Shown: piece by piece, positions 10,363 through 25,466 of the stretch
How positions within the stretch are numbered: the stretch's first letter is position 1
Layout of the letters: every line of letters starts with the position of its first letter
Origin: Candidatus Limnocylindrales bacterium
Lineage (GTDB): Bacteria > Desulfobacterota > Binatia > UBA1149 > CAITLU01
Assembly (NCBI GenBank): GCA_035571835.1
Contig: DATNBU010000011.1
Location: forward strand, 124,001-188,000
Direction of reading: 5' to 3'
DNA length: 64,000 nt
The notes under the pieces: model-generated
Told to the model about the DNA's origin: nothing
Seen by the model: only the letters and a program-made list of their open reading frames with translations
The model's database searches: none
Made by a program: the position numbers and the translations under genes

Positions 10363-10425
10363 GCCGCGCATTGCCCTCGGACGTTCGTGCTGCGCATTGG
10401 GCACTTGATGTTCATGCTGCGCATT
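10357..10425 (-). repeat. 2.6-unit tandem duplication spanning the menF stop / menD start
   Basis: Read on the minus strand, three units begin AATGCGC(A/G)GCA(T/C)GA: 27 bp (10425-10399), 26 bp (10398-10373) and a partial third (10372 on). In unit 1 the embedded ATGA contains the menF stop; in unit 3 the ATGA at the same offset contains the menD start; in unit 2 it has decayed to ACGA. The simplest reading is that menF and menD once overlapped by ATGA and that duplication of the junction separated them by about 50 bp. Confidence 0.85.
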
Positions 10426-11710
10426 CATTGGTCCCGCGTTCGAAGTACGGGAGGATGCTGGCCATCTTGCGTTCGGTTTCGTCGAACTCGCGTTCGGGTG
10501 AGGAGCCTTCGACGATGCCGGCTCCGGCCCAGACGTGTGCGGCGTCGGCGTCGATGAGCGCGGCGCGAAGCGCAACGGCCAGCTCTCCGTCTCCGGATGC
10601 GCCAATCCAGCCGATGCCGCCGCCGTACCAGCCGCGATCCGGCTCCTCGGCTGCGAGCCGCCGGCATGCATCCTCGCGCGGAGCGCCGCAGACCGCGGGC
10701 GTCGGATGCAGCCGCTCGGCAATCGAAAGCAGGTGCGACGTTTTTCCGGGTGCGAGTCGCGCCCGGATCGGCGTGTGAAGGTGATGCGCTTCCGGCAGCC
10801 GCTGAACGACCGGCTGCTCCGGGACATCGATCTCGCACGCGAACGGCGCGAGCGCATCGCGGATCGCATCGGAGACGATGCGATGCTCGCGCTGGTCTTT
10901 CGGTGACGCGAGAAGCTCGCGTGCGAGGGCTTCGTCGTGCGCGGCACTGTGGCCGCGACCGGCGCTTCCCGCCAGAGCATCGGCGTCGATGCGGCCCTGG
11001 TCGAGACGCAGCAGGCGCTCCGGGCTCGAACCGGCAAACGCGCGGCCGTTCCAGCGCACGAGGAACGTAAAGCAGGACGGTCTTGCCTCGGCGAGCGCAC
11101 GCACGAGGAGCGCGATCGGCGCGCGGCAGCGGGCGGTATGACGACGTGCAAGCACGACCTTCTCGATCTCGCCGGCGCGAATCGCATCCACTGCCGAGCT
11201 CACGCGACGATGCCAGTCGCTTGCCGGCTCGTCTGCGGCGGCGAAGCTCGTGGAACGGCCATCGCAAGGAGAGACGCCGTTGCAGGCGAGCAGCGACGCC
11301 GGCGTCTGCGCACGGCCGGCCGCATAAGCGACGATCATCCTGGTGACTGCGCCGCGCCGCACCCACAGCATGCGCGGCACGAACAGCCGCAGCGGCGGGA
11401 ATCCCGTCCATGTCGGACCGGGCGCGGCATCGTCGAACGCAAACCCGCCGACGGCAAGCGGCCAGTCGCCGTCGACGTCGTCGATGGTCGCGCGCAGCGA
11501 CTCGAGCTGTGCAATGGCGTCCCGGAAGCGCGTGCGTCCGGACGACTCGACGACGGCAACTGCGCCGAGCGCAGCAATCTCGACATCGCGCTCGTCCGAT
11601 CGCCAGTAGAACGCCGGTTCGCCGGGCGCGAGCTCGATGGCGTCGAGCGGATCGCGGGTCGCGGTCTCGGCGAGCAGCTCGCGGCGGATGCGCAGGGGAC
11701 GGCTGATCAT
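10412..11710 (-). CDS. menF: Isochorismate synthase (MenF-type)
   Basis: 432 residues, a chorismate-binding-fold enzyme that isomerises chorismate to isochorismate, the entry to menaquinone synthesis. Supporting motifs in the C-terminal half are GEIEKVVLARR, GSSPERLLR, LAGSAGRG, SPKDQREH, HHLHTPI, LHPTPAVCGAP and GWYGGGIGWI. The N-terminal half is more variable, as usual in the family. Next to menD and menG, MenF is far more likely than a siderophore or salicylate synthase. The ATG overlaps the stop of the 32-codon repeat ORF as ATGA; the stop falls in the duplication shared with menD. Confidence 0.93.
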   Translation of the reverse strand: MISRPLRIRRELLAETATRDPLDAIELAPGEPAFYWRSDERDVEIAALGAVAVVESSGRTRFRDAIAQLESLRATIDDVDGDWPLAVGGFAFDDAAPGPTWTGFPPLRLFVPRMLWVRRGAVTRMIVAYAAGRAQTPASLLACNGVSPCDGRSTSFAAADEPASDWHRRVSSAVDAIRAGEIEKVVLARRHTARCRAPIALLVRALAEARPSCFTFLVRWNGRAFAGSSPERLLRLDQGRIDADALAGSAGRGHSAAHDEALARELLASPKDQREHRIVSDAIRDALAPFACEIDVPEQPVVQRLPEAHHLHTPIRARLAPGKTSHLLSIAERLHPTPAVCGAPREDACRRLAAEEPDRGWYGGGIGWIGASGDGELAVALRAALIDADAAHVWAGAGIVEGSSPEREFDETERKMASILPYFERGTNECAA

Positions 11711-11805
11711 TTTAAGTTCGCCTGACGGCTCACTCTGAGGTTCGCCTGACGGATCACCCTGATGTTCGCCTGGCGGACCACTCTGGTGTTCGCCTGATGG
11801 CTCAT
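11707..11805 (-). CDS. 32-codon ORF made of an 8-residue tandem repeat, between menG and menF
   Basis: ATG 11805 overlaps the menG stop as ATGA and the TGA at 11709-11707 overlaps the menF start as ATGA, so a ribosome finishing menG could read through this ORF and re-initiate at menF. The 32-residue product is almost only repeats of RQANxRVx (HQANTRVV, RQANIRVI, RQANLRVS, RQANLK). Codons differ between units mainly at variable positions while Q-A-N-x-R-V is kept. It is too short and repetitive for any family I know. It may be a true small protein or only an expanded, translated spacer that preserves coupling. Confidence 0.5.
   Translation of the reverse strand: MSHQANTRVVRQANIRVIRQANLRVSRQANLK
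11716..11803. repeat. 24-bp tandem repeat, about 3.7 units, at the menG/menF junction
   Basis: Plus-strand units begin GTTCGCCTGRYGGMYCAC at 11716, 11740, 11764 and 11788, each 24 bp, the last cut by the menG stop. The period is a multiple of three, so unit-number changes keep the 32-codon ORF open. The units diverge by a few bases, so the array is not very recent. Confidence 0.93.
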
Positions 11806-12509
11806 TGAACCTGCTCGACGCGCACGGCGGTCACGATCTGCACGGCGCCGAGCATTGCGCTCTCTCGGTCGACGGCGGCGAAGCCGGCATCGGCGAGCAT
11901 CGTCCGCATCGTCGGCCACGGCGGAAGGTAGACGGCCGATTCCGGAAGGTACGAGTACGCCTTGCGATCGGCGAGCAGGCTGCCGACGAGCGGCACGACG
12001 CGATCGAAATACACGGAATGCCCGAGACGGATCGCGGCGTTCTCCGGGCGGTCCACTTCGACGATCGCGAGCCGGCCGCCCGGCCGCAGCACGCGCGCCA
12101 TTTCGCCAAACGCCGGCGCGAGCGACGCGAAGTTGCGAAGCGCGAATCCGCAGACGACGGCATCGAATGCGCCGCTGCGAATCGGAAGCCGCATCGCATC
12201 GCCGCGCACGAGCAGGCCGGCAAGGCCGCGAAGCGACGCGTGATCGAGCATGCGCGCCGCGTAGTCGGTTGCGACCACGCCGGCGCCGCGGGCCAGGCAC
12301 ATCTCGGCGAAGTCTCCCGTGCCGCAGGCGACGTCGAGCACGAGGTCATCGGCGCCGACGCCGATCCTGTCGAGCGCGCGGCGACGCCATTTCTGGTCGA
12401 GGCCGAACGTCAGCAAGCGGTTCATGCGGTCGTAATGCGGCGCGATGCGGTCGAACATCGCTTCGACGACGGCGGCTTTTTCGGCGGGCGAGGGAAGCGT
12501 CACTGCCAA
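11802..12509 (-). CDS. menG: Demethylmenaquinone methyltransferase (MenG/UbiE)
   Basis: 235 residues, the SAM-dependent methyltransferase that completes menaquinone (or acts on the ubiquinone precursor in other bacteria). The UbiE signature MFDRIAPHYDRMNRLLTFG is followed by KWRRRAL, SAM motif I DVACGTGDFAEM, and ADYAARML-like post-I residues (ATDYAARML). CGFALRNF and GEMARVLRPGGRL complete the core. With the other men genes the menaquinone role is favoured. It starts 10 bp inside the end of the MerR gene and ends in an ATGA overlap with the repeat ORF. Confidence 0.93.
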   Translation of the reverse strand: MAVTLPSPAEKAAVVEAMFDRIAPHYDRMNRLLTFGLDQKWRRRALDRIGVGADDLVLDVACGTGDFAEMCLARGAGVVATDYAARMLDHASLRGLAGLLVRGDAMRLPIRSGAFDAVVCGFALRNFASLAPAFGEMARVLRPGGRLAIVEVDRPENAAIRLGHSVYFDRVVPLVGSLLADRKAYSYLPESAVYLPPWPTMRTMLADAGFAAVDRESAMLGAVQIVTAVRVEQVQ

Positions 12510-13273
12510 CTGACCTTGAGCTTGGTGCGCGCGGCGACTTTGAGCGCATACGACAGCGTCGTCGCGTCGCCCTTTTTCTTGAGGCGGCGAAGCGCCTGGT
12601 TGACGAGCACGCGCTGGAAATGATGGGCGACGACCGCGGTGACCAGCGGGAGCAGCTCGCGGAACGCTGCGGCCACCTGCTCGCCGTTTTCCCCGCCGTC
12701 GGCGGACGCGTCCGCGCCGCGCTTCTTGCGGACGTAATCGTCGAACAGGTCGATGGCGCTGTCGCAGGTCTTGCGGATCGCGCGGTCGTGCCGGACGGCC
12801 AGCGCGAGCAGCTTCGTCAGCGGGAATCCGTAGCTCAGCAGCCGGATCGCGCCGCGGGCCGCGGCCAGGTCACCTTCGGTGTAGCGGCGCTTGCCGTCGT
12901 CGGTCTCCTGGCCCTCGGCCAGGCCGGCCTCCTCGACCGAACGGATGAGGGCCGGGGGCACGCCGAGCTGGCGGGCGAGCTCGTCTCCTGAGTAAGCGGG
13001 TCCATCGGTCTCTTCTTCGAGCGCGGCCAGCAGCGCAGTGTCGCTGGCGGCCGGTCCGGACTCGCGATCGAGCAGCAGCCGGATGGCCTTGAGTGACAGG
13101 CCTTTCGACGCCATCGATCGGATCAGGCGCAGCCGGTCGAGATGCTCCGGAGTGTAAACGGCCTTTCGCCCGGACCGTGCCGGAGGCTGTAAGAGCCCGC
13201 CAGACTGATAGAAACGCAGCGTATCGACCGAGATCCCGGCCGCCGCCGCAAGGTCCGAAACATCGTACTGCAT
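12500..13273 (-). CDS. MerR-family regulator with two HTH segments, first gene of the men unit
   Basis: 257 residues. The N-terminal MerR winged helix is clear (YDVSDLAAAAGISVDTLRFY, then GRKAVYTPEHLDRLRLIRS, residues 1-60). A second MerR-like HTH follows at about 95-165 (YSGDELARQLGVPPALI, KRRYTEGDLAAARGAIRLL), and the rest is helical and charged. No Cys cluster for metal sensing is visible, so the signal is unknown. It overlaps menG by 10 bp, so it is probably co-transcribed with, and may regulate, the menaquinone genes. The family usually activates promoters with long spacers and often acts on its own operon; direct control of men is inference. Confidence 0.88.
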   Translation of the reverse strand: MQYDVSDLAAAAGISVDTLRFYQSGGLLQPPARSGRKAVYTPEHLDRLRLIRSMASKGLSLKAIRLLLDRESGPAASDTALLAALEEETDGPAYSGDELARQLGVPPALIRSVEEAGLAEGQETDDGKRRYTEGDLAAARGAIRLLSYGFPLTKLLALAVRHDRAIRKTCDSAIDLFDDYVRKKRGADASADGGENGEQVAAAFRELLPLVTAVVAHHFQRVLVNQALRRLKKKGDATTLSYALKVAARTKLKVSWQ

Positions 13274-13281
13274 GAGTCCAG

Positions 13282-13310
13282 ACTCTTAGAGTGTTTACTC
13301 GAAAGGTCAA
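13282..13310 (-). promoter_or_regulatory. Candidate MerR operator/promoter ahead of the men operon
   Basis: Just upstream of the MerR ATG (13273), the minus strand holds TTGACC (13310-13305) and, downstream, the palindrome ACTCTAAGAGT (13292-13282); a second dyad GAGTAAACACTC lies between. A -10 of TAAGAG fits at 16-bp spacing, but no good hexamer appears at the 19-bp MerR spacing. No Shine-Dalgarno precedes the ATG, so a near-leaderless mRNA is possible. This is a pattern-based guess. Confidence 0.4.
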
Positions 13311-13370
13311 CGCTTGCCACACCCGGCTGCGTACTACTGACATGAAAGTAAACTTTTTTCTGGAACCGTA

Positions 13371-13398
13371 TTGATGCTGACACCGGGGTAAGTATAGG
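13371..13398 (+). promoter_or_regulatory. Candidate sigma70-type promoter for the 909-residue exported protein
   Basis: TTGATG at 13371-13376 and TATAGG at 13393-13398 are separated by 16 bp, each matching four of six consensus bases. A Shine-Dalgarno-like GGGAGG lies 8 bases before the ATG at 13443. Confidence 0.4.
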
Positions 13399-13442
13399 TT
13401 CTGTCCCAGACAAAACGTCCGCGTTTCCGGGAGGGCCGTTCG

Positions 13443-16172
13443 ATGACGAAGTTTTCTCCGCCGCTAGTGGCGATGGCGATTCTCGGTCTGGTAACGGTCC
13501 CAAAAGTTTCGGCCCAGGTGCCCCCTCCCCCAACCTCGGCCGAAAGAGGGTCGGCGCCGGTCATACTGACTGGCGCCGACCTTCCTTCATGGTCTCACCT
13601 CGCCGCCACCATCGTCTGCATGCCCTGGCCGTACGGCGCACTGATCGGCGACCGCAACGCGCATAGCGGCACGGCGGTCGTTCCTCCCGACGTTCGCGCG
13701 GGCGTTGTGCCGCAGGACATCGCGGCGTTTCGCTGGAATGGCTCCTCGTTCGAAGAAATCCCGGTACAGGTCGACGAGGTGATGCCGTACTGCCTGTCGA
13801 ACATCAATTCGGACTTCGGCCTCTACTCCGGTACCGACAAGGAATTCAGCTACGCGTGGGATGTCGAGAGCTGGAAGAAAGTCTCCGGCGTCTGCTCTGC
13901 GGAGTATCCGGAAGGTGAGACGGCAACGCCGGATCCCGCCGGCATGCTCGACGACGACGACGAGATCGTCTTCATGGCGTCCGACGCAGGCGACGTCGCG
14001 CCGGTCGGAGCTTCGTTTCCTCCCGACGTCTCCTCGGTGCACGCGGTTGCCGTCATCGATCCGCTCGCGCCGAGCTCGCCGCACTTCGTATATCTCGCCG
14101 TTCGTCCCGGCGGCTCGACGTTCACGAGCGACAACGGGCTCGTCGACTACGCCAGAGACGCCAACGCGGACGAGTGGATCGACCGGTACGACTTCGCCGA
14201 CGACGATCCGGAAAAAATCGGCTCGAGCAACACCGGTTATGGCCCGAACCTTTCCGGCACGGTCTGCGACGGCGGCCTGGTGCCGCGCGCGTCGACCGAC
14301 CGCTTCCCGCGCGACGGCGTAACCGTCAGCACAGACAAGTATCAGTTCCGCGCGAGCGGCCGCTGGATGATCCGCGGCATGCGGATCGCCAAGCCCGACG
14401 CACCGGGAGACTACGGTCCCGACCTGATCGACCGCTGGAAGGGCCGCGCATTCCAGCAATCGCCCGACTCGACGATCTCCGTCGTCGGTTTCGAAGACGA
14501 GCAGGTCAACTGGGAAGCCAACTCCGCGCTGCTCGGTGAACGGATGGGTCCGGTGCGCGCGATCCGCGAGATCTGGGGCGCCGACTCCGGCACCAACGTG
14601 ACCAACACCGAAACCTTTTACCGCGACGCCGTCACGTACCGATACCACGTGCGCGTGCATCCGATACCTCCCGACGGCCTGTACACGTCGTGGGATTACA
14701 ACCACGGCGTCGCGGTAAAGTACTACAACACGCTGAAGACCGACGGGGTCGACATCGACGGCGTCAACGACGACACCGGCAACATCGACGCGGTGAACGG
14801 CCAGCCGGCGTTCTTCGACCTTCCGGATCCGTCGTTCAACATTCCGTCCGCCCTGCTGAACTGGGAAGAGGTCTCCGGCGCCGGCGATGCGGGCTCGCTC
14901 GTCTACATCATCGAGATGAAGGGCGCGACGACGCTGGTGAACTCGGCGGTGGTGCCGTACTACCGCGACGACGCGTGCCTCGACGACGGCACCGGCGATG
15001 ATCCGGTTCCGCGGCCGTGGCCCGGCGAAGCCAGCACCGACCAGCGCGTGAAGGACGGATACTCGGCCCTTGCCGGCGGCACGCCGTACGATCAGCTCGC
15101 GTGCTCGCAGAAGCAGGGCGCGTGGGGCGCGCACGGCATTCACTATTTCGTCACCGGCGATACCGACAACGTCTTCACGCCGGAGACCGTCACCGAAATC
15201 GACGCGATGCAGTGGCAGTTCGCCGTGCCGACCTCCGAGCCTACCAATATCGGCCAGGCATATGGCGACAACGTGCGCATTCCGCTGCAGACCGTTGCGA
15301 TCGATCTGGCGAGCGCGCCCGTCAGCGTGCCGCCGCAGGCATCGGACGCCAGCGCGACCACGCAGCAGAACAAGCCGGCCGATGTCGTGCTCGCCGGGGC
15401 GGACCTCGACACCTGCGAGCTCACGTTCCGCATCGTCGATCCGCCGGCATCCGGACAGGTCGGAGCGATCTCCGGCCTCGCATGCTCGGCGGCTACGCCG
15501 AACACCGACACCGCGACCGTCACTTACACGCCGAACGCCGGATTCATCGGCAGTGATTCGTTCACGTACGTGGTCGGTGACAGCACGAGCGAATCGCAGC
15601 CGGCCACCGTCTCGATCACGGTTACTCCGCCGCCGCCGCCGTGTTCGGGCGGGCCGCGAACCGGCTGCCGCGTCTCGACGAAGTCCGGCAAAGGCCAGGT
15701 CCGGCTGAGCGACGCAGACGACACCGAGGACGATTCGCTGTCGTGGAAATGGCTCGCGGGCGAGCAGACCGACGTCGCCGACTTCGGAGACCCCGCGGCG
15801 ACAACCGACTACGAGCTGTGCGTGTTCGATGCGTCGGGCACGGCGGTCGCGTACGTCCAGTACGACGCGGCCGAAGACTGCGGCGGCAAACCCTGCTGGC
15901 GCAGCACCAGCTCGGGTTACGGCTTCAGCCGGCGCGTCGAGGACGAAGACGGCACCAAGAGCACGGCCAAGCTGACGCTCCGGGCCGGAGCGCAGGGCAA
16001 GGCGAAGATCACCGCCAGCGCGACCGGCGGGCTCCTGTCGGTCGGCGGACTTCCGCCCGAGCAGCCGGTCGTCGTCGAGCTCCGAGCCAAGGACGGAGCG
16101 TGCTGGCAGGCGACGTTCAGCGAGCCCGCTTCAGTATCCGAAGCCGGTTCATTCGAAGATCGCGCGGACTGA
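13443..16172 (+). CDS. Large exported protein with cadherin-like domain and Cys/Trp C-terminal module
   Basis: 909 residues. A signal peptide (LVAMAILGLVTVPKVSAQ) is followed by about 580 residues of acidic, aromatic sequence that I do not recognise, rich in D/N/Y/W. Residues ~600-705 look like a cadherin-like/VCBS-type beta-sandwich (YTPNAGFIGSDSFTYVVGD, then ATVSITVTPPPPP). The C-terminal ~190 residues contain Cys pairs and end in a compact module (KPCWRSTSSGYGF, KLTLRAGAQGKAKI, DGACWQATFSEP) that I have seen in other predicted exported proteins. A GGGAGG site precedes the ATG. No catalytic motif is visible, so a cell-surface or secreted structural role is likely, but function is unknown. 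A strong hairpin follows the stop. Confidence 0.85.
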   Translation: MTKFSPPLVAMAILGLVTVPKVSAQVPPPPTSAERGSAPVILTGADLPSWSHLAATIVCMPWPYGALIGDRNAHSGTAVVPPDVRAGVVPQDIAAFRWNGSSFEEIPVQVDEVMPYCLSNINSDFGLYSGTDKEFSYAWDVESWKKVSGVCSAEYPEGETATPDPAGMLDDDDEIVFMASDAGDVAPVGASFPPDVSSVHAVAVIDPLAPSSPHFVYLAVRPGGSTFTSDNGLVDYARDANADEWIDRYDFADDDPEKIGSSNTGYGPNLSGTVCDGGLVPRASTDRFPRDGVTVSTDKYQFRASGRWMIRGMRIAKPDAPGDYGPDLIDRWKGRAFQQSPDSTISVVGFEDEQVNWEANSALLGERMGPVRAIREIWGADSGTNVTNTETFYRDAVTYRYHVRVHPIPPDGLYTSWDYNHGVAVKYYNTLKTDGVDIDGVNDDTGNIDAVNGQPAFFDLPDPSFNIPSALLNWEEVSGAGDAGSLVYIIEMKGATTLVNSAVVPYYRDDACLDDGTGDDPVPRPWPGEASTDQRVKDGYSALAGGTPYDQLACSQKQGAWGAHGIHYFVTGDTDNVFTPETVTEIDAMQWQFAVPTSEPTNIGQAYGDNVRIPLQTVAIDLASAPVSVPPQASDASATTQQNKPADVVLAGADLDTCELTFRIVDPPASGQVGAISGLACSAATPNTDTATVTYTPNAGFIGSDSFTYVVGDSTSESQPATVSITVTPPPPPCSGGPRTGCRVSTKSGKGQVRLSDADDTEDDSLSWKWLAGEQTDVADFGDPAATTDYELCVFDASGTAVAYVQYDAAEDCGGKPCWRSTSSGYGFSRRVEDEDGTKSTAKLTLRAGAQGKAKITASATGGLLSVGGLPPEQPVVVELRAKDGACWQATFSEPASVSEAGSFEDRAD

Positions 16173-16197
16173 GATCTTCATCAGATTTTCCTGGACG

Positions 16198-16232
16198 GCG
16201 CAGGCCCGGTTTCGTGAAAACCGGGCCTGCGC
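16198..16232 (+). terminator. Hairpin terminator after the 909-residue gene
   Basis: A perfect 15-bp stem (GCGCAGGCCCGGTTT pairing with AAACCGGGCCTGCGC) has a 5-base loop, 25 bp after the stop. The following TCGTTTGC has few Ts, so it may be a weak intrinsic terminator or an mRNA end-protecting hairpin. Confidence 0.7.
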
Positions 16233-16447
16233 TCGTTTGCGGAGTGCAACGCAGCAAAGTTCGACCGCTGCGTTGCGACCGAAACGTGTGCGCATCTTCC
16301 GATTGCGTGCGCTTTCTGCTGCATGGCGTCTTGCTGTTTGCCCATCGCCCGATTCTTACTGGAAAAAAACGAACGGCATTGGTTCGACGCGTGCGCGATA
16401 CTCGCGAGCGCGGCGAACGAAACAGGAAATGGGGGCGGACGAGCGCG

Positions 16448-16669
16448 ATGCGCAAAACAACGAACGTGAGCGAAGCGGAAAATCTCTGGAAGGCGGCGGG
16501 GCAGGCCGCGTTGATCGGACTTGCCGGCGCGGCGGCGATGCTGGCAACGGAAATGATGCTGTTCCCGGGCCTTGTGCGCGCGGGCGACGCCGCGGTTTCG
16601 TGCTCCGCGGCCTGCGGTGCAAATCCGGCGGTGAGCGCGGCGAGCGCGGGACCCGACGCCGGGAATTGA
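16448..16669 (+). CDS. Small hypothetical membrane protein
   Basis: 73 residues (MRKTTNVSEAENLWKAAG, then a hydrophobic run ALIGLAGAAAMLATEMMLF, then an Ala/Cys/Ser-rich tail). A GGGGGCGGACGAG stretch just upstream could serve as the ribosome site. It looks like a single-pass membrane or exported small protein. I recognise no family. It stands alone between the hairpin at 16198-16232 and the convergent aldose epimerase. A chance ORF in GC-rich DNA remains possible. Confidence 0.4.
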   Translation: MRKTTNVSEAENLWKAAGQAALIGLAGAAAMLATEMMLFPGLVRAGDAAVSCSAACGANPAVSAASAGPDAGN

Positions 16670-16687
16670 CGGGCCAGGGTCGCCCGT

Positions 16688-17641
16688 TCAGCCGAGAACG
16701 CGCACGCGGAACGTCGCTTCGAACGGCCGGCCGCGCTCCGCAACAGGAAAACCCCTGCCTGCGCCAAGCGCGTTGGCCGGTGCCGTCATCGGCTCGATGC
16801 AGAAAAATTCCGCGCCGGCCGGCGCGAAGATCTGCACGTACGGATAGCCCTCGGCCAGCTCGACCTCGATCCGCCTGCCGCCGCCTTCGATCGCGAACAC
16901 ACCGGGAGGGATGATTCCGGTGAATCCGTCATCGTAGGTGCGACCTGCGAGCGGCGCGCGCGGGATCGTCACGTCCTCCATCTCACCGGTTGGAATCGAG
17001 CGCGCATCGAGTACCAGGCGCCGGCGCACCGGCAGCTCGACGATCCAGCTTTCGCGCCGGATTCCCGGCAGCTGGAAGTACGGATGATACCCGAACGAAA
17101 CCGGAACCGGCCGCTCGCTGGTCGCTTCGATCGTGGTCGTGACGGCAAGCTCGGCCGACGAGAGCGAGATCCGCATCGTCACGTCGTGTGGAAACGGGAA
17201 GCTCGCGAGGAGCGCCGGCGATTCGAAACGGAAGCGGGCGGTAAGCAGCGCGGCGGTCGCGGACGATGTCTCGCTCGTGATCTCCCAGGGCGTGCGGCCG
17301 CCGAGCAGTCCGTGATTGGGAAGACCGTTGGCATCCCTTGCGACGCGCGCGCCGGCCTCGCCGTCCGTGGAGAGATCGACTCGCGCACCGCAGGCTTCGT
17401 ACGTGTCGCCCGACAACCGGTTGGCCCACGGATGCAGGAACGGGATGCCGCAGGTCTTTGCGCGCTCGGCGTACGCCGCGATCCCGGCGCGAAGGTGCAG
17501 AAGCTGCTCGCCGTCGTGCACCAGCGACGTGCACAGCATGTTGAGCGTCGGCAGGAACGTCGCATCGAGCCGCCTGTCGGGCGACACGAGGGTCCGGGCC
17601 GGGAAGTCGGCTTCGCTCGCGTGAAGGATCCGCGCGGTCAC
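16688..17641 (-). CDS. Aldose 1-epimerase / galactose mutarotase-like
   Basis: 317 residues from a GTG that directly abuts the beta-helix stop (TGA then GTG). The mutarotase fold is indicated by HPWANRL (first substrate His), LPNHGLLGG, SFGYHPYFQLP (second His region) and the catalytic Glu in EFFCIEPMTAPANAL. The family interconverts alpha and beta anomers of hexoses; D-hexose-6-phosphate mutarotases look similar. No signal peptide is visible, so it is cytoplasmic. The zero-base spacing to the upstream exported beta-helix gene implies co-transcription and perhaps carbohydrate processing, but no other sugar genes are adjacent. Confidence 0.88.
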   Translation of the reverse strand: MTARILHASEADFPARTLVSPDRRLDATFLPTLNMLCTSLVHDGEQLLHLRAGIAAYAERAKTCGIPFLHPWANRLSGDTYEACGARVDLSTDGEAGARVARDANGLPNHGLLGGRTPWEITSETSSATAALLTARFRFESPALLASFPFPHDVTMRISLSSAELAVTTTIEATSERPVPVSFGYHPYFQLPGIRRESWIVELPVRRRLVLDARSIPTGEMEDVTIPRAPLAGRTYDDGFTGIIPPGVFAIEGGGRRIEVELAEGYPYVQIFAPAGAEFFCIEPMTAPANALGAGRGFPVAERGRPFEATFRVRVLG

Positions 17642-19597
17642 TCAGCGGCAGTCGAGCGCTGCCGCCGATCCTTCGCAAACGGGCGACGAGCTTCCCGGGG
17701 TGTTCCATTCGAGGGCCCCGCATTCGTCCGTGTTCCCGAGTACGAGCGACGTGCGAACCGCCGTCGCGGAGGGCAGCGTCGCGCTGGAGTCGCTCCTCGC
17801 CTTGATCGTGACGCGCAGGCGTCCGTCTTCCGAGCTGCTGCGATCCTTGACGATGGCCTTGGTGACGCCCGCGACCGTTCCGTCGCGGTCGCTGTACTTC
17901 CATGTGGTGCCGGCCCCGTTCACGGTCCATGCGGCGCCGCCGGGGAGCAGCGCATCGAATGCGCCCGCACCGGATGTCGAATCGAGCAGGAAATGGATTC
18001 CGCTCGCCGGCGGATCGATGCCGGCCCACGGTTTCGGGATGACGACTTCCGCGGAGAACTTGACGTACAGCGGAGTCGCGCGCGCCTTGACGCGTGCGCG
18101 CTCGAGCTCGATTCCGCTTTCGCAGAGCGGCGCATTGCTGCACTGACAGCCCGTGCAGACCTGGCCGCCCGTGCAGTCGCCGTCTGACTCGCACTGCTCG
18201 CTGCCGCAGATGGCCTGATCGCCGCAGACCGGATCGGCCGCTGCGCAGATGCATCCGAGGCACGCCGTACACGGATCGGAGCACGACGGCAGACCGGGCT
18301 CGCCGCAGACCTCTCCGGCGTCGATGTTGCCGTCGTTGCAGTTCGGGAGCTGGGCTTCGTATGCACCCATGTCGTATCCGCCGCCGACCGGACGGCCGCC
18401 GCCGTCGATGTCGGTTCCCGGCGCGCCGGTCGCGGTACCCGCGTCGATCGCCGGCGACGACGGCAGCAGGTGAAAATCGCTCGCCGGATTGAAGAAATGG
18501 TCGGTGGGCGTTGCCAGGAACGAATGCGCGTCGCGCCCGGCCGCCTGCCACGTCGCCAGCGAGATCACCGTGTCGCCGCCGTCGGTGCTGAAACGGTTCA
18601 TCAGCGAATTGTAGTCGGACGTGAAGCCGCTGAGGCTCGACGAATCGATCGTGATCACGCCGCGGAACGAGTGATAGTTGTACAGGATGTTGTTACGAAT
18701 CGTATTGCCCGTCGATCCGCCGCTGATGTTGATGCACCAGCGTCCGTTGGACGCGTTGATGATCGTGTTGTTGATGACGAGATTGCCCGTCGCTCCGGTC
18801 GCACCGTCGATCCTGTACAGGCTGATGCCGCTTGCGTGATTGTCATACAGCAGATTGTTGCGCACGACGCTGGTGACGACGCCGTCCATGTTGATTCCAG
18901 AGCCGCCCGCGACGCCGTTGCCGTGAATCACGTTGTTCTCGACGAGCGCGTCGGAGATGGTTCCGTCGCCTCCCTGCGATTCGTCGCCGTTCATGTGGAT
19001 GCCGTTGGCGTTGTTGTCGTGCGAATGGTTGCCGCGGATCACCGGCCGGTCGCCGCTGTTGGACACGTAGATTCCGTGTTCGTCGATCGAGCCGAACGTC
19101 TCGTTGTTCTCGATCAGCAGGTCGTCGACGAAACCGGTGAAGATTCCCCAGCGGCCATTGGTGCCGCACGTGCAGTTGCGCACCGTGATGTGGTGCGAGA
19201 CGGCGGCGCGGATGCCGGCGCGCGTGCGGTTGCTCGACGTGAACCCGTCGATCGTGATGTACGCGGCGTTCTCGATGTTGATGCCGTCGGGCGTCTCCGG
19301 ATTGTCGCTGGTGATGTGCACGTTCGGCCCGGATGCAGCGAATTCGATCGGCGAGCCGGCTGTCGCAACTATGCGGACGTCGAAGCCCGCATAGTTGCCG
19401 TCGGCTACGTGCACGGTATCGCCGGGCACGACCGTGTCGGCGGCTTTCTGCAGCGTCGCCCATGCGGCGGCGGGCGTCATGCCGTCGGCGGCGTCGTTTC
19501 CGCCTGGCGCAACGTAGCGATCGGCGGCATGCGCCGGTGGAGACAGTACAGCAGCAAGGATCGCGGCGACCGCGATCCGTTTCGAGATGACTGGCAT
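17642..19597 (-). CDS. Exported right-handed parallel beta-helix protein with Cys-rich tail
   Basis: 651 residues from ATG 19597, preceded by GGAGGGGG. A signal peptide (AVAAILAAVLSPPAHAA) leads to DRYVAPGGNDAADG, typical of secreted pectate-lyase-like helices, then about 300 residues of beta-helix coils with many N..I.NN and GI repeats. A Cys-rich segment follows (NDGNIDAGEVCG, then roughly 17 Cys in 75 residues), then the shared C-terminal module ending DECGALEWNTPG...C...LDCR, which the truncated gene at the right edge also has. The longer open frame to 19720 lacks a ribosome site and is rejected. Probably carbohydrate-binding or cleaving at the cell surface; no catalytic residues identified. 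Confidence 0.88.
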   Translation of the reverse strand: MPVISKRIAVAAILAAVLSPPAHAADRYVAPGGNDAADGMTPAAAWATLQKAADTVVPGDTVHVADGNYAGFDVRIVATAGSPIEFAASGPNVHITSDNPETPDGINIENAAYITIDGFTSSNRTRAGIRAAVSHHITVRNCTCGTNGRWGIFTGFVDDLLIENNETFGSIDEHGIYVSNSGDRPVIRGNHSHDNNANGIHMNGDESQGGDGTISDALVENNVIHGNGVAGGSGINMDGVVTSVVRNNLLYDNHASGISLYRIDGATGATGNLVINNTIINASNGRWCINISGGSTGNTIRNNILYNYHSFRGVITIDSSSLSGFTSDYNSLMNRFSTDGGDTVISLATWQAAGRDAHSFLATPTDHFFNPASDFHLLPSSPAIDAGTATGAPGTDIDGGGRPVGGGYDMGAYEAQLPNCNDGNIDAGEVCGEPGLPSCSDPCTACLGCICAAADPVCGDQAICGSEQCESDGDCTGGQVCTGCQCSNAPLCESGIELERARVKARATPLYVKFSAEVVIPKPWAGIDPPASGIHFLLDSTSGAGAFDALLPGGAAWTVNGAGTTWKYSDRDGTVAGVTKAIVKDRSSSEDGRLRVTIKARSDSSATLPSATAVRTSLVLGNTDECGALEWNTPGSSSPVCEGSAAALDCR

Positions 19598-19739
19598 GAG
19601 ATCCCCCTCCGCGAGGACCGAGTGTGGCTCGGCGGGCGGTCTTCGCGCAAGGGCAAGTCGGGGAAGTTCCGGCACGCCGGCGCGAAAACCGGACAAGTCG
19701 CGGTTTCCCGCGTCGCGCACGGGCGGATAGCCTTACGCC

Positions 19740-20879: not shown

Positions 20880-21277
20880 TCCGCGCCATGAGCAACTCCC
20901 CATTGGCCGCCTGGCACGAGCTCGTAAAAACGAAGAACAGCGACGGGATCCTTCCGCTGCTTGCCGACGACGTCGTATTCTTCTCTCCGATCGTACACAC
21001 GCCGCAGGCAGGCCAGGCGTTGACGCTCCTGTACCTGACCGCCGCTGTCCATGCGTTCGGCAACGATACGTTCCGCTACGTTCGCGAAATCGTCGGCAAC
21101 CGCGACGCCGTTCTCGAATTCGAGGTGACCGTCGACGGCATCCGCGTAAACGGCGTCGACATGATCCGCTGGAACGACGACGGCAGGATCGTCGAGTTCA
21201 AGGTGATGCTGCGTCCGCTGAAGGCGATCAACCTGATGCACCAGAAGATGGCGGCCATGCTCGAACAGCTCGGCTGA
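20876..21277 (+). CDS. NTF2-like (SnoaL-type) small protein
   Basis: 133 residues from ATG 20876, coupled as ATGA to the PLP enzyme; ATG 20888 is an alternative. The sequence (WHELVKTKNSDGILPLLADD, then VVFFSPIV, and later GRIVEFKVMLRPLKAINL) fits the NTF2-like cone fold, an alpha+beta barrel used by many small isomerases, lyases and binding proteins. No catalytic assignment is possible. Coupled translation suggests it serves the same pathway as the PLP enzyme. Confidence 0.8.
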   Translation: MIRAMSNSPLAAWHELVKTKNSDGILPLLADDVVFFSPIVHTPQAGQALTLLYLTAAVHAFGNDTFRYVREIVGNRDAVLEFEVTVDGIRVNGVDMIRWNDDGRIVEFKVMLRPLKAINLMHQKMAAMLEQLG

Positions 21278-21321
21278 GCGTTCGCATCGGGGCCGGCGGT
21301 CGGTTTGCATCTGCGGTGCCG

Positions 21322-22422
21322 TCACCGCACCGGTTGCCTGCCGGAATCCACCTTTCGGATCAGCTTCTCGACGCGCTCTTCCACTTCGTGAATTTCATGA
21401 CTGCCGAGGCCGAGCTGAATGCGGTTGCCGCGCCGTGCGAAGCCGTCCTCGATCTCCGGCTCGAAAGGTGCTTCGGGCGCAACGACGTGCAGCATGCCGG
21501 CGTTGTCGACCTCGAGCTCGGCGACGACGGCCAGCGCGCGGATCGTCTTCTTGTCCACCTTGCGCAGGCGATCGACTGTCTCGCGGCGAAGCCATGGCAC
21601 ACGGATCCGGAACCAGTTGTTCACGTTCAGGTTCCACGGAAGCAGGTCGAACGCCATGCCGTTGTCGACCGCATACGAGCGCGGGTCGCTCGCGTCGGTG
21701 GACACCAGGATGTTTCCCTGATGACCGTCGCGATGACCGATCACATAGGTCAGTACGTTCAGATCGGCCAGGTAGCGGGCGTAAAGCGGATCACTGCGGA
21801 AGCGCTTCTTGTCGTACGCGTCTTTCGGCGCCGTCACGTCCTCGAGCCAGACGGCGACGGTGCCGAGCACGCAAGACGAGCCCGCAAGCGTCGGCTTCGA
21901 ATCGGCTTGAAAGGAACGGATCTTCTCCAGCGCAAAGCAGCGGGGCTCGATCGTCGGAACCACATAGTCGTTTTCATCGAAGAGCCATCGCTGGATTTCG
22001 TAAGTGGCGAGCTCTCTGCGCGGCGAATTGTTCCAGCCGTCGGCGGTTTCCGGCGGGGCAGACTTCCACTTCGCCTGCAGCGTCTTGCCGTCGGAAAAAG
22101 CGATCGCGAGCTTCCAGGCGCCGGTCACGCCGCTGCCGGCAGGCTTGGCCTCGCGGATTTCGATGTCCTGCTCGCCGAGGCGTTTTTCGAGCTCGGCCGG
22201 CGCCATCGGCCAGTTGCGCGGAAGTCCCGCGGCATTCGTCGAGCCCGCGATCGCCAGACACAAAAGAGCGCCTGCAGAAACGAAAGATGCCGGTCGCGCG
22301 TTCCGCGCACGGCGCGCCTTGGTGTTGGGAACGATTGCCCGGTAGTCCGCCATGGCACGACGATGACAGACGTCGCGCCTGCCAGCAGCAACCATTGCTT
22401 CGGCGCTGTCGGGTGCTGCCAT
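21322..22422 (-). CDS. Exported protein-kinase-like protein (PI3/4-kinase / HipA-like catalytic loop)
   Basis: 366 residues. A hydrophobic signal-like segment (SAGALLCLAIAGSTNAAG) follows a basic N-terminus. Then come KLAIAFSDGKTLQAKWK with a candidate ATP lysine, RRELATYEIQRWLF with a candidate helix C Glu, the catalytic-loop-like YVIGHRDGHQGNILV (H-x-D-x4-N) and AVDNGMAFD like a metal-binding DFG/DNG. This loop resembles PI3/PI4-kinase-like, HipA and Fam20-type atypical kinases. Start uncertain: ATG 22422 has AGGGTG upstream; ATG 22353 gives a shorter leader. Its start is divergent from the peroxiredoxin gene with only 24 bp between. Protein, sugar or lipid substrate cannot be told. Confidence 0.65.
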   Translation of the reverse strand: MAAPDSAEAMVAAGRRDVCHRRAMADYRAIVPNTKARRARNARPASFVSAGALLCLAIAGSTNAAGLPRNWPMAPAELEKRLGEQDIEIREAKPAGSGVTGAWKLAIAFSDGKTLQAKWKSAPPETADGWNNSPRRELATYEIQRWLFDENDYVVPTIEPRCFALEKIRSFQADSKPTLAGSSCVLGTVAVWLEDVTAPKDAYDKKRFRSDPLYARYLADLNVLTYVIGHRDGHQGNILVSTDASDPRSYAVDNGMAFDLLPWNLNVNNWFRIRVPWLRRETVDRLRKVDKKTIRALAVVAELEVDNAGMLHVVAPEAPFEPEIEDGFARRGNRIQLGLGSHEIHEVEERVEKLIRKVDSGRQPVR

Positions 22423-22446
22423 ATTTCACCCTGAAGGAGTCGCCCC

Positions 22447-22914
22447 GTGATCGAAGTCGGAAAGAAAGCCCCCGCGTTCGCACTGAAAGACCAGGATGGC
22501 CAGACCCGCCGCCTGTCGGATTACGCCGGGCAATGGGTCGTTCTTTATTTCTATCCGAAGGACGACACGCCCGGCTGCACGATCCAGGCGTGCGAGTTCA
22601 CGGCCGGCATTCGCCAGTTCGGCAAGCTCGATGCGGTCGTGCTCGGCTGCAGCGGCGACAGTGAGGAAAGCCATCGCAAGTTCATCGCGAAGCACAAGCT
22701 CAAGATCACGCTGCTGTCGGATCCTGCGCACCAGACGATGGAGAAGTACGGCGCGTGGGGCGAGAAGAACATGTACGGGAAGAAGACGATCGGCGTGATC
22801 CGATCGACCGTGCTGATCGATCCGGCCGGCAAGGTCGTGCGTCACTGGAAGAAGGTGCAGGCCAAGGGGCACGCCGAGTCGGTGCAGACTGCGATCGGGG
22901 AAGCGCAGGCCTGA
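22447..22914 (+). CDS. bcp: Thioredoxin-dependent peroxiredoxin, BCP/PrxQ type
   Basis: 155 residues from GTG 22447, with AAGGAG 6 bases before it. The peroxidatic Cys44 lies in DDTPGCTIQACEF and the resolving Cys49 five residues later, the arrangement of atypical two-Cys BCP/PrxQ enzymes that reduce peroxides using thioredoxin. The rest (FYPKDD, SGDSEESHRKF, GVIRSTVLIDPAGKV) fits full length. Cytoplasmic. It shares its very short upstream region with the divergent exported kinase-like gene. Confidence 0.93.
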   Translation: MIEVGKKAPAFALKDQDGQTRRLSDYAGQWVVLYFYPKDDTPGCTIQACEFTAGIRQFGKLDAVVLGCSGDSEESHRKFIAKHKLKITLLSDPAHQTMEKYGAWGEKNMYGKKTIGVIRSTVLIDPAGKVVRHWKKVQAKGHAESVQTAIGEAQA

Positions 22915-23584: not shown

Positions 23585-23774
23585 CCGGCGGGGAGCGTTT
23601 CAGATTGCGCGATGACACGCCAGCGTGACGCGGCCGCTCCTGCCCATCCCTCCCGAAACTGGTAGAGATGACGCTCGCCACGCGGGATGCGCCGGACCGA
23701 CGAAAAAGCCGGCTGCCACTTTACGCCCTGAAGCGCGACGCATCGTCGTCGCCTCGCGCAATCGCCGGCAGGCG

Positions 23775-24629
23775 ATGGGGATGCATATGCAAAACACAAT
23801 CGCCGTCCACGCCGTTTCGTTGTCGCTGCTGCTGCAGGCGAGCATCGCTGCTGCGGTGACGACTGTTCCCGGGTCCTCCAATCCAAACCTCGCAGGTCGC
23901 GCCGACGGCTACGCATGCTGCGGCGGCGACTCGGTGCCACAGTCCTCTCCGGCCGCGGTCACCGAAACCGACTTCTCGCCATGCGACGTGCTCAACTTCT
24001 CCGCCACGGGAAAGGTAAACTTCGCCGGAGTCCCGGTGACCGGCAACAATCCGGACGGCGAGGGCGCATTCAGCCTGTTGAACTACAACGATGGGATTGC
24101 GCCGGCCCTGAACGTCCGTGTGGATGCCCTGGTCGGAGTCTTTCTCGGTCCGGATTCGCCGACCGGATCGCCGACACCCACGCCGATCAGCTTTCAGTCC
24201 GGACTGGGCTTTGCATGGTTGGCTCCCGGGATCGGCCAGATGTTCTTCGTCGGTGACGGCCTCACATCCGACAGCAACGCGGGCCTGTTCAACGGCGAGC
24301 AGCAGTCGTTCATCGTTCCCGCCGGCGCCACGCGGCTCTTTCTCGGCACGGTCGACGGCGAGGGCTGGTACAACAATTCGGGAAGTTTCTCCGTCGACGT
24401 TTCGATCTCGGACAAGCCGTTCGACGAGTGCGGCGATCCTGCGAAACCCGCGGGAATAACCGCAAGCGACGCACTGGTCGCGCTGCGTACTGCGGTTGGA
24501 ACCGGAAGCTGCCTGGTTTGCACGTGCGACGTCGATGCGTCGGGCGGCATCGTCGCGAGCGACGCGCTGGCCGTGCTGCGGCACGCGGTCGGACTCAACG
24601 TGCAGCTTGTGTGTCAGCCCTGCTGCTAG
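23775..24629 (+). CDS. Exported protein with a paired ASDAL/Cys C-terminal module
   Basis: About 284 residues. ATG 23775 is used; ATG 23781 and ATG 23787 (GGGG six bases before it) are alternatives. A signal peptide (VSLSLLLQASIAAAV) leads to a Gly/Asn/Pro-rich beta domain (GRADGYACCGGDSVP, NPDGEGAFSLLNYNDG, GLFNGEQQSFIVPAGATRLFLG), like exported surface proteins. The last ~65 residues are the two-copy module: ITASDALVALRTAVG, CLVCTCDVDASG, IVASDALAVLRHAVG, then LVCQPCC. This resembles type I dockerin calcium loops/helices (DVD..G.ITASDAL.VLR) but with added Cys. Convergent with a second gene carrying the same module. Confidence 0.82.
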   Translation: MGMHMQNTIAVHAVSLSLLLQASIAAAVTTVPGSSNPNLAGRADGYACCGGDSVPQSSPAAVTETDFSPCDVLNFSATGKVNFAGVPVTGNNPDGEGAFSLLNYNDGIAPALNVRVDALVGVFLGPDSPTGSPTPTPISFQSGLGFAWLAPGIGQMFFVGDGLTSDSNAGLFNGEQQSFIVPAGATRLFLGTVDGEGWYNNSGSFSVDVSISDKPFDECGDPAKPAGITASDALVALRTAVGTGSCLVCTCDVDASGGIVASDALAVLRHAVGLNVQLVCQPCC

Positions 24630-24707: not shown

Positions 24708-25466
24708 TCAGGAACAAGCGGGGCAGTTCAAAGTCACCTCGTTACCCACCGCGTAACGCAGCACCGACAGCGCGTCGTTCGTGGTCGCTCCATTGACGCC
24801 GTCAGCGTCGCACCGGCACGGATCGCAGCTCTGGATGGCGACCGCGGTGCGCAGCACGAACAGCGCATCGGCTACCGTGACCAGATGAAACGGCTCGGCC
24901 GGATCCGCACATTGTCCGGCCGGCGAGATTCCGATCGGATAGAAGAACGGGTCATCCAGGTTGGCGGTGATTTTCGCACTGGGGCCGCCGCCGGTCTTGG
25001 TTGCACGCAGCTCGATGCGCGCTGCAACTGCGTCGAGCGGCGACGTCGCGGAACCACCCGTCAGTTTCCACTGCGTTGCGCTTGTTGCGGACGTGCTCGG
25101 CGGAATTCCCGGGAGCTCGTTCTCGCATCCGGCATCGCTCGTCCACACGACGACGAGGCCGGCCCGGCCCCCGGCATTGTTCGGAATGTCGAGCAGCACA
25201 TCGACGCCGTATTCGTACGTGTCGCCGCCGTCGACCGCAATGCACTGGCTGATTGCCGCCGTCGTGACGCTGTCGAGCTCGAACTGGACAGAGCCGGAGA
25301 TTTCCGATCCGTCGGAGTCCTCCGGCGACCAGCTTGCGGCAGGTGACAAATCCCATCCTCGCAGGTCCTGATCGAAGTAAGAGTTGGTGAATGCGTAAGA
25401 CGTCGAAGCCAACACGGCCGGGGCGACGACGGACAACGTGAAAAGCGACACCCGCGTAGTCACCAT
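24708..25466 (-). CDS. Exported protein with carbohydrate-binding-like domain and ASDAL/Cys module
   Basis: 252 residues; AGGAGGG precedes ATG 25466. A signal peptide (LSVVAPAVLASTSYAF) is followed by a jelly-roll-like domain (TNSYFDQDLRGWDLSP, then QFELDSVTTAAISQCIAV and RIELRATKTGG) resembling CBM-type beta-sandwiches. The C-terminal ~68 residues are the same paired module as in the convergent neighbour (TVADALFVLRTAVAI, CDPCRCDADG, TTNDALSVLRYAVG, LNCPACS). Two adjacent genes with this module and different N-termini suggest a common assembly or anchoring mechanism. Function otherwise unknown. Confidence 0.84.
   Translation of the reverse strand: MVTTRVSLFTLSVVAPAVLASTSYAFTNSYFDQDLRGWDLSPAASWSPEDSDGSEISGSVQFELDSVTTAAISQCIAVDGGDTYEYGVDVLLDIPNNAGGRAGLVVVWTSDAGCENELPGIPPSTSATSATQWKLTGGSATSPLDAVAARIELRATKTGGGPSAKITANLDDPFFYPIGISPAGQCADPAEPFHLVTVADALFVLRTAVAIQSCDPCRCDADGVNGATTNDALSVLRYAVGNEVTLNCPACS

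Follow-up and report, generated by a model that had tools for sequence, protein, structure and literature searches.

The predicted kinase gene of the window

The window is the whole stretch of DNA that was analysed, 64,000 nucleotides long. The open reading frame (ORF) at 21322-22422 has a coding-like composition (GC 0.77 at the third position and 0.47 at the second) and is a genuine gene. Its features are given below, with conservation in two alignments of the family, A3 (28 rows) and A1 (12 rows).

21322..22422, minus strand: exported-looking, atypical kinase gene (predicted Fam20/PI4KII fold); 366 aa, ATG start
22231..22353, minus strand: leader from M24 to A64 with hydrophobic core, from sequence and hydropathy; M1 and M10 are alternative starts
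21325..22230, minus strand: mature kinase domain, covered by the AlphaFold2 model; pLDDT 92.9, pTM 0.92
22069..22071, minus strand: K118, predicted ATP-binding lysine in the third strand; invariant, 28 of 28
22012..22014, minus strand: E137, predicted alpha-C glutamate; invariant, 28 of 28, within a search pattern
21937..21939, minus strand: C162, possible disulfide partner of C184; 28 of 28 in A3, 11 of 12 in A1
21871..21873, minus strand: C184; 28 of 28 in A3, 12 of 12 in A1
21712..21729, minus strand: catalytic loop DGHQGN with D232 (predicted base) and N237 (predicted metal ligand); both 28 of 28
21664..21666, minus strand: D253 of DNG, predicted metal-binding aspartate (DFG equivalent); 28 of 28, within a search pattern
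22447..22914, plus strand: divergent peroxiredoxin gene (Pfam AhpC-TSA, E 6.9e-41)

The sequence-only reading had proposed a possible secreted kinase from a signal-like N-terminus and the motifs HRDGHQGN and D-N-G-x-A-F-D. Both motifs are present in this frame, as HRDGHQGN (with D232 and N237) and AVDNGMAFD (with D253). The upstream lysine and glutamate that it suggested were located as K118 (in AKWK) and E137 (in RREL). The leader consists of a basic stretch and the hydrophobic segment FVSAGALLCLAIAG (aa 47-60), followed by STNA and then A, and this segment lies inside the product whichever of M1, M10 and M24 is the start. Cleavage is likely between STNA and AGLPRN; the corresponding sites are AFA before EGLPRN in a paralogue and ANA before DGLPRN in a relative.

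With the M1 start, the divergent peroxiredoxin gene does lie 24 bp away, as had also been pointed out. A functional tie between the two genes was not adopted; the peroxiredoxin looks like an incidental neighbour and is probably not part of the kinase system. Three candidate peroxiredoxin genes lie near kinase relatives, of which by Pfam one matches AhpC-TSA (L033), one is below the cut-off (L026) and one has no match (L036). No ORF similar to the window peroxiredoxin was found by phmmer at E<=1e-4 in the kinase loci scanned. ORFs resembling it occur in L063 (18646-19170) and L067 (1234-1761), approximately 6-7 kb from NTT-HEAT-cNBD genes that have no kinase; they are unexplained and were treated as chance. 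The interval 21200-22600 yielded no promoter-like site, and its two terminator-like matches are close to the number in shuffles (mean 1.4). Elsewhere in the window, two exported-looking proteins (23625-24629 and 24708-25466) carry C-terminal tandem motifs (ASDALAVLRHAVG), which by eye we take to be dockerin-like, and a similar protein is encoded in L049 (5883-6713).

Predicted fold and similarity to known kinases

The mature domain of the window protein was modelled by AlphaFold2 with alignment A3. In the model, K54 (K118) is part of the third strand and E73 (E137) of the helix that follows; D168 and N173 belong to the loop behind the long helix 148-163, and D189 comes just past the strand 185-187. 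In this predicted structure, the placement of the residues is the kinase order. The spacing of D232 and N237 is that of the D-R-H-x-x-N loop of PI3/4-kinases.

The best Foldseek match of the model was PI4KIIalpha (E 1e-7, TMq 0.53), and the best VIA-align match was hydra Fam20 (Z 17.8, rmsd 3.7 A, 252 of 302 residues aligned). Lower VIA-align matches were Fam20C (Z 16.6-17.2), Fam20A (16.1-16.4) and PI4KII (15.2-16.2), and CtkA (12.3) and PI3K-like kinases (10-11) were lower still. The second model, of a Kiloniellales member (L025, Alphaproteobacteria; pLDDT 90.0), gave Z scores of 16.2 for Fam20 and 15.4 for PI4KII, which is the same order but counts as a tie. The viral fold library returned generic PI3K/PI4K and kinase matches. 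Since Fam20 and PI4KII stand on top in two models, the predicted fold is that of a Fam20/PI4KII-type atypical kinase, and by profile the protein belongs to neither family. The fold expected by the sequence-only reading is thus predicted, with Fam20 and PI4KII scoring highest and the HipA-like CtkA lower; activity is inferred. The scores also led to the rejection of HipA as the nearest relative (CtkA Z 12.3 vs Fam20 17.8).

At the sequence level, PF00454 (PI3_PI4_kinase) matched the window protein around the catalytic loop with 20.2 bits (E 8e-4; cut-off 27.1) and matched 14 of the 28 members at E<=1, below the cut-off. The Fam20C Pfam family gave no match to the window protein at E<=10 and none among the 28 members at E<=1, and the CotH and HipA_C Pfam families matched neither the window protein nor the 28 members. 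No CotH chain was among the best 50 fold matches listed by Foldseek and VIA-align, and this absence excludes nothing. The sole kinase match of the PDB sequence search was one PI3-kinase (E 0.07-0.2), which stood behind tyrosyl-tRNA synthetases (E 0.01-0.13). The synthetases were dropped as chance, because their alignments span the catalytic loop but lack its Asp, and because a kinase fold is predicted.

Distribution and conservation of the family

The window protein belongs to a new, undescribed bacterial family, which passes no Pfam or NCBIfam cut-off. With the window protein, the NCBIfam search returned UbiB alone (E 0.12), phmmer against the PDB gave no match, and a one-sequence scan of the genome_contigs collection found no relative. 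PADLOC with three proteins found none, and the plasmid search gave no match. Among the top-ranked matches in open-licence PMC, no paper on the kinase family or on its pairing with NTT genes was found, which is a weak negative.

A profile scan of the genome_contigs collection gave 29 kinase loci, labelled as Deltaproteobacteria/Myxococcota, Kiloniellales/Rhodospirillales, Acidobacteriota, Oligoflexia and unplaced MAGs. Most relatives came from a scan with two peptide patterns, NN[SCD]PR[KR]E.. and [PR]R..DNG., either one being enough. Alignment A3 combines the window protein with 27 loci; of the 29, L040 (truncated at a contig end) and L041 (frame broken) were omitted. Together, A1 and A3 cover 32 of the 34 family genes. 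The window's class has 12 kinase copies in 9 of 148 genomes, the same by single-protein or profile search, and in an evenly drawn sample of 395 genomes from the phylum the kinase was found only in the window's own genome (G000) and in G360, both of this class. The paralogue in G000 lies on another contig and shares 50% identity with the window kinase over residues 53-365.

K118, E137, C162, C184, D232, N237, D253, N254 and G255 are invariant in the 28 rows of A3, and in A1 they are found in 12 of 12 rows except C162 (11 of 12). The histidine of the 'HRD' is variable (21 of 28 in A3). The invariance of E137 and DNG is partly selected, because both lie in search patterns; K118, D232, N237, C162 and C184 lie outside them. 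The five catalytic residues are invariant in both alignments, and therefore the motif is not chance. The catalytic Asp and Asn of the first reading, D232 and N237, are accordingly conserved in the aligned homologues.

Evidence for export

Export was judged by regex and hydropathy alone. Among the 34 family ORFs, three follow another domain in a fusion and one is N-terminally cut, which leaves 30 unfused and uncut. All of these 30 have a strongly hydrophobic 12-mer (mean Kyte-Doolittle at least 1.97) upstream of the domain, and 20 of them match a loose lipobox pattern, for which there was no control. Under a strict rule (lipobox after a hydrophobic stretch, limited to called genes of at least 150 aa), 12 of 29 kinases matched vs 4 of 238 neighbouring genes (Fisher P 3e-10). 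In L013, L014 and L048, the kinase is the C-terminal part of an ORF behind a beta-lactamase-like domain, which is homologous to a separate protein of L045 (Pfam Beta-lactamase2, E 2e-16). Beta-lactamase-type proteins are normally periplasmic. The two conserved cysteines (C162 and C184) would fit an oxidising compartment. As far as sequence features can tell, export is supported family-wide by the leader, the lipobox, the cysteines and the beta-lactamase-like fusion, and the signal-like N-terminus claimed earlier for the window protein finds its support here.

ATP/ADP-translocase-like genes beside the kinases

An NTT-like gene, of the ATP/ADP translocase type, is present in the available flank of 14 of the 34 kinase genes (13 of 33 loci). 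It lies within approximately 50 bp of the kinase in L013, L016, L022, L025, L027, L028, L045 and L047. NTT-HEAT-cNBD and kinase genes are convergent in L013, L014, L045 and L047; the NTT gene is downstream on the kinase strand in L016, L022, L025, L027 and L028, and an NTT-HEAT gene is on the same strand upstream in L018 and downstream in L041. In the window's class, an NTT gene was found within 5 kb of 8 of the 12 kinases vs approximately 0.1 expected; the expectation ignores shared ancestry, and the NTT count of G452 is one too high, which is conservative. Counted by family, the linkage was found in 3 of 4 (P 4e-5).

The window copy has no NTT gene in its 64 kb. Among the 34 family genes, 20 have none in the available flank, and 10 of these, the window copy included, have at least 5 kb on both sides. 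The paralogue in the same genome does have NTT neighbours, in locus L045, which is arranged as follows.

9326-10729, plus strand: NTT1
10747-14256, plus strand: NTT-HEAT-cNBD
14278-15264, minus strand: paralogue kinase
15261-16328, minus strand: beta-lactamase-like gene
16550-19600: PPDK-like protein, 1017 aa; N-terminus signal-like, PPDK_N ATP-binding domain (E 1e-25)

The kinase of L045 thus has the NTT genes on one side and the beta-lactamase-like and PPDK-like genes on the other. In L047, L013 and L014 the kinase is likewise flanked by homologues of these genes, and the same holds in G525, provided that L048 and L066 connect over a contig break. Positions 5729-9151 of L045 encode a large protein that by eye looks CARDB-like, and a protein of 1206 aa with CARDB repeats and a Peptidase_M23 domain lies beside the NTT genes of L047 (14357-17974).

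A profile of 11 NTT-like proteins, 10 from near kinases and one from contig C13 of G000, matched solved ADP,ATP carriers (E 7.1e-25 for 9j3n, and 3.3e-21). The Pfam family TLC (PF03219) was over the cut-off in 4 of the 8 neighbours scanned (L015, L016, L022 and L025), under it in L013 and L018, and absent from L041 and the second L016 protein; it was also absent from both L045 proteins, which were scanned separately. These patchy matches mean that some of the NTT-like neighbours are divergent. In the window's genome, PF03219 matched a single ORF, on contig C13 and far from both kinases, and it matched in 0 of 14 control genomes. Some of the neighbours matched by profiles A4 and A5 had themselves gone into building these profiles, so the independent evidence for NTT is Pfam and the solved carriers. 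A4 matches 132 of the 148 class genomes at E<=0.001, many solely through the cyclic-nucleotide-binding part; approximately five candidates were scored per genome, and hits above 990 bits alone were used.

Of the 11 NTT-HEAT-cNBD matches above 990 bits in the class, 5 lie within 2 kb of a kinase and 1 at a contig break. NTT-HEAT-cNBD genes without a kinase in the genome were found in G445, G446, G482, G483 and G485, and in G484 the two are on different contigs. The kinase-free loci of G445 and G446 keep the PPDK-like and FYTG-type proteins, NTT1 and NTT-HEAT-cNBD (frame interrupted in G446), and that of G445 also retains the beta-lactamase. The translocase is therefore not there for the kinase alone. 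Even without the kinase, this locus combines NTT proteins with an ATP-binding enzyme that looks exported. No exported ATP-using enzyme was recognised in L063-L065 and L067, either by eye or by phmmer with nine query proteins.

The kinase tree, built from 32 rows without L040 and L041, places the window protein in a starred six-member clade (98/93). An NTT link exists for four of its five companions there (L013, L014, L045 and L047); L048, the fifth, counts as linked solely by the contig-break argument, on which it was also labelled in the tree. We infer that the window copy most likely arose by duplication from an NTT-linked ancestor and then lost the linkage. The NTT label requires 7 changes on the tree, of which starred branches force at least 4, and clustering just as strong arises in 14 of 500 shuffles. 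A kinase subclade of L030, L031, L033 and L036 (100/100) has no NTT gene in the available flanks. We assume that a neighbour common to L030, L031 and L033 is trimethylamine-methyltransferase-like and that one common to L031, L033 and L036 is aminotransferase-like, from their looks.

Phosphatases and other recurring neighbours

A calcineurin-like phosphoesterase gene overlaps the kinase stop in L015, L017 and L020; its products pass the PF00149 cut-off (E 5e-5 to 8e-5) and have a signal-like N-terminus by eye. In L021, L025 and L028, a Y_phosphatase3 gene (E 4e-64 to 2e-62) adjoins or neighbours the kinase, and its product has a lipobox-like leader, also by eye. The PPDK-like protein of L045 is a second candidate exported ATP-using enzyme. 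It has homologues in L047, L048, L013, L014, L062 and L068 (Pfam was run on L045 and L048), and the PPDK-like genes adjoin NTT genes and genes of FYTGFAPRTQDP-motif proteins, of which the L048 copy has no Pfam match. A fusion of a sodium:dicarboxylate symporter with a solute-binding domain occurs near the kinase in distant lineages, namely in L022 (2870-5029) and L027 (2-2008) by Pfam and in L016 (1365-3665) by phmmer similarity. A Phytase-like (PF13449) protein is encoded between the NTT gene and the lipoprotein-like Tyr phosphatase gene of L025 (5604-6671).

Proposed function and alternatives

The periplasm is generally regarded as free of ATP, and the presence of an exported kinase is therefore a puzzle in its own right. 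We believe that the ATP/ADP-translocase neighbours would be a concrete, testable answer to the missing extracytoplasmic ATP. With confidence that is evenly balanced, we speculated that the window gene encodes an extracytoplasmic atypical kinase with translocase-supplied ATP; its family, fold, conserved catalytic set and leader can be read from the sequence or the model, and its activity, substrate and transport direction are inferred. The kinase activity of the whole family is likewise an inference, and the sequence matches to kinases are all below cut-off. The exported kinase, in the periplasm or at the surface, would move the phosphate of ATP onto an extracytoplasmic substrate (protein, glycan or lipid). 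The ATP would reach it through NTT-type ATP/ADP translocases encoded beside many of its relatives and beside its paralogue, and exported phosphatases beside some relatives may reverse the phosphate mark. The window copy would be a solo paralogue that shares the ATP pool made by the other locus (L045). Beyond this, we tentatively suggest, doubtful as it still seems to us, that there is a dedicated extracytoplasmic phosphorylation system, in which NTT proteins would export ATP for ADP, exported kinases (this family and the PPDK-like enzyme) would mark the envelope or surface, and phosphatases would unmark it.

Three other explanations were weighed. The protein might be an exported kinase-fold enzyme with another chemistry, such as AMP transfer as in SelO or glutamylation as in SidJ, or with another donor, so that no ATP supply would be needed. 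Kinase-fold proteins with different chemistries exist, according to sources available in part, and the conserved NNSPR and the DNG in place of DFG are unusual; however, every canonical phosphotransfer residue is kept, and the NTT and phosphatase neighbours fit phosphorylation, so that we consider this explanation unlikely. The intact catalytic residues, all five of them in all 28 + 12 aligned rows, also speak against a pseudokinase or ligand-binding envelope scaffold, for example one that tunes a beta-lactamase-like or transporter partner. We find such a scaffold improbable, although the kinase is fused or adjacent to a beta-lactamase-like protein and Fam20A is a pseudokinase of the secretory pathway (PMC5865150, available in part).

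The remaining explanation concerns the neighbours rather than the enzyme. The NTT association may reflect a locus built around the ATP need of the exported-looking PPDK-like enzyme, with the kinase as a passenger in some lineages. This would agree with G445 and G446, where the PPDK-like and FYTG-type proteins and both NTTs (in G445 the beta-lactamase too) are kept without a kinase, but kinase-NTT pairs without a PPDK-like gene in the available flank were found in L015-L018, L022, L025, L027, L028 and L041. We give it little credence, and even a passenger kinase would still imply extracytoplasmic ATP. A kinase supplied with ATP by translocases remains our preferred explanation of the window gene. 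If it is right, ATP-driven chemistry outside the bacterial cytoplasm would be a genetic system, and the Fam20-type solution of an exported kinase with lumenal ATP import would have arisen or persisted in bacteria too. If the wider system is true, it would be a bacterial counterpart of phosphorylation in the Golgi/ER lumen and would give a function to the NTT-HEAT-cNBD proteins of free-living bacteria.

Comparison with known systems

Type II PI4-kinases are cytosolic and have a lipid substrate. They were the top Foldseek match, with weak PF00454 similarity around the catalytic loop, whereas the bacterial family is exported-looking and below the PF00454 cut-off. HipA/CtkA shares the kinase fold (CtkA Z 12.3), but its structural score is clearly lower and the window family has no HipA Pfam match. 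CotH spore-coat kinases are products of the mother cell, a compartment that contains ATP. According to the accessible part of PMC7821199, CotH is a bacterial atypical kinase related to Fam20C; the window family differs in having no CotH Pfam match. A Legionella survey placed four novel families with the FAM20/CotH group (PMC9758233, seen in excerpt).

The Fam20 kinases of Metazoa (Fam20A/B/C) are the best solved fold match, across nearly the whole domain, and, as may also hold for the window family, work outside the cytosol and contain disulfides. Available portions of PMC7948968 and PMC5865150 describe the Fam20 kinases of animals as acting in the secretory pathway. A catalytic Asp with a basic residue two positions on is common to both (Asp299/His301 in the part of PMC5865150 at hand vs D232 and H/R/K234 here). 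In contrast, identity is 11-18%, there is no Fam20C Pfam match, the window family is bacterial, and Fam20 has four disulfides (same partial source) vs two conserved cysteines in the bacterial family. ATP import into the ER has been ascribed to SLC35B1 (PMC12267056 and PMC9010763, both in part), and by analogy an NTT-fed exported kinase would follow the same logic.

The kinase neighbours match solved NTT/TLC carriers, whereas the characterised members of these translocases serve parasites and plastids. Some neighbours also share the NTT-HEAT-cNBD architecture described in PMC5381601, insofar as its text was available. That portion describes NTT-HEAT and NTT-HEAT-cNBD proteins as widespread among free-living bacteria and without a characterised function, and it mentions no kinase link for these fusions.
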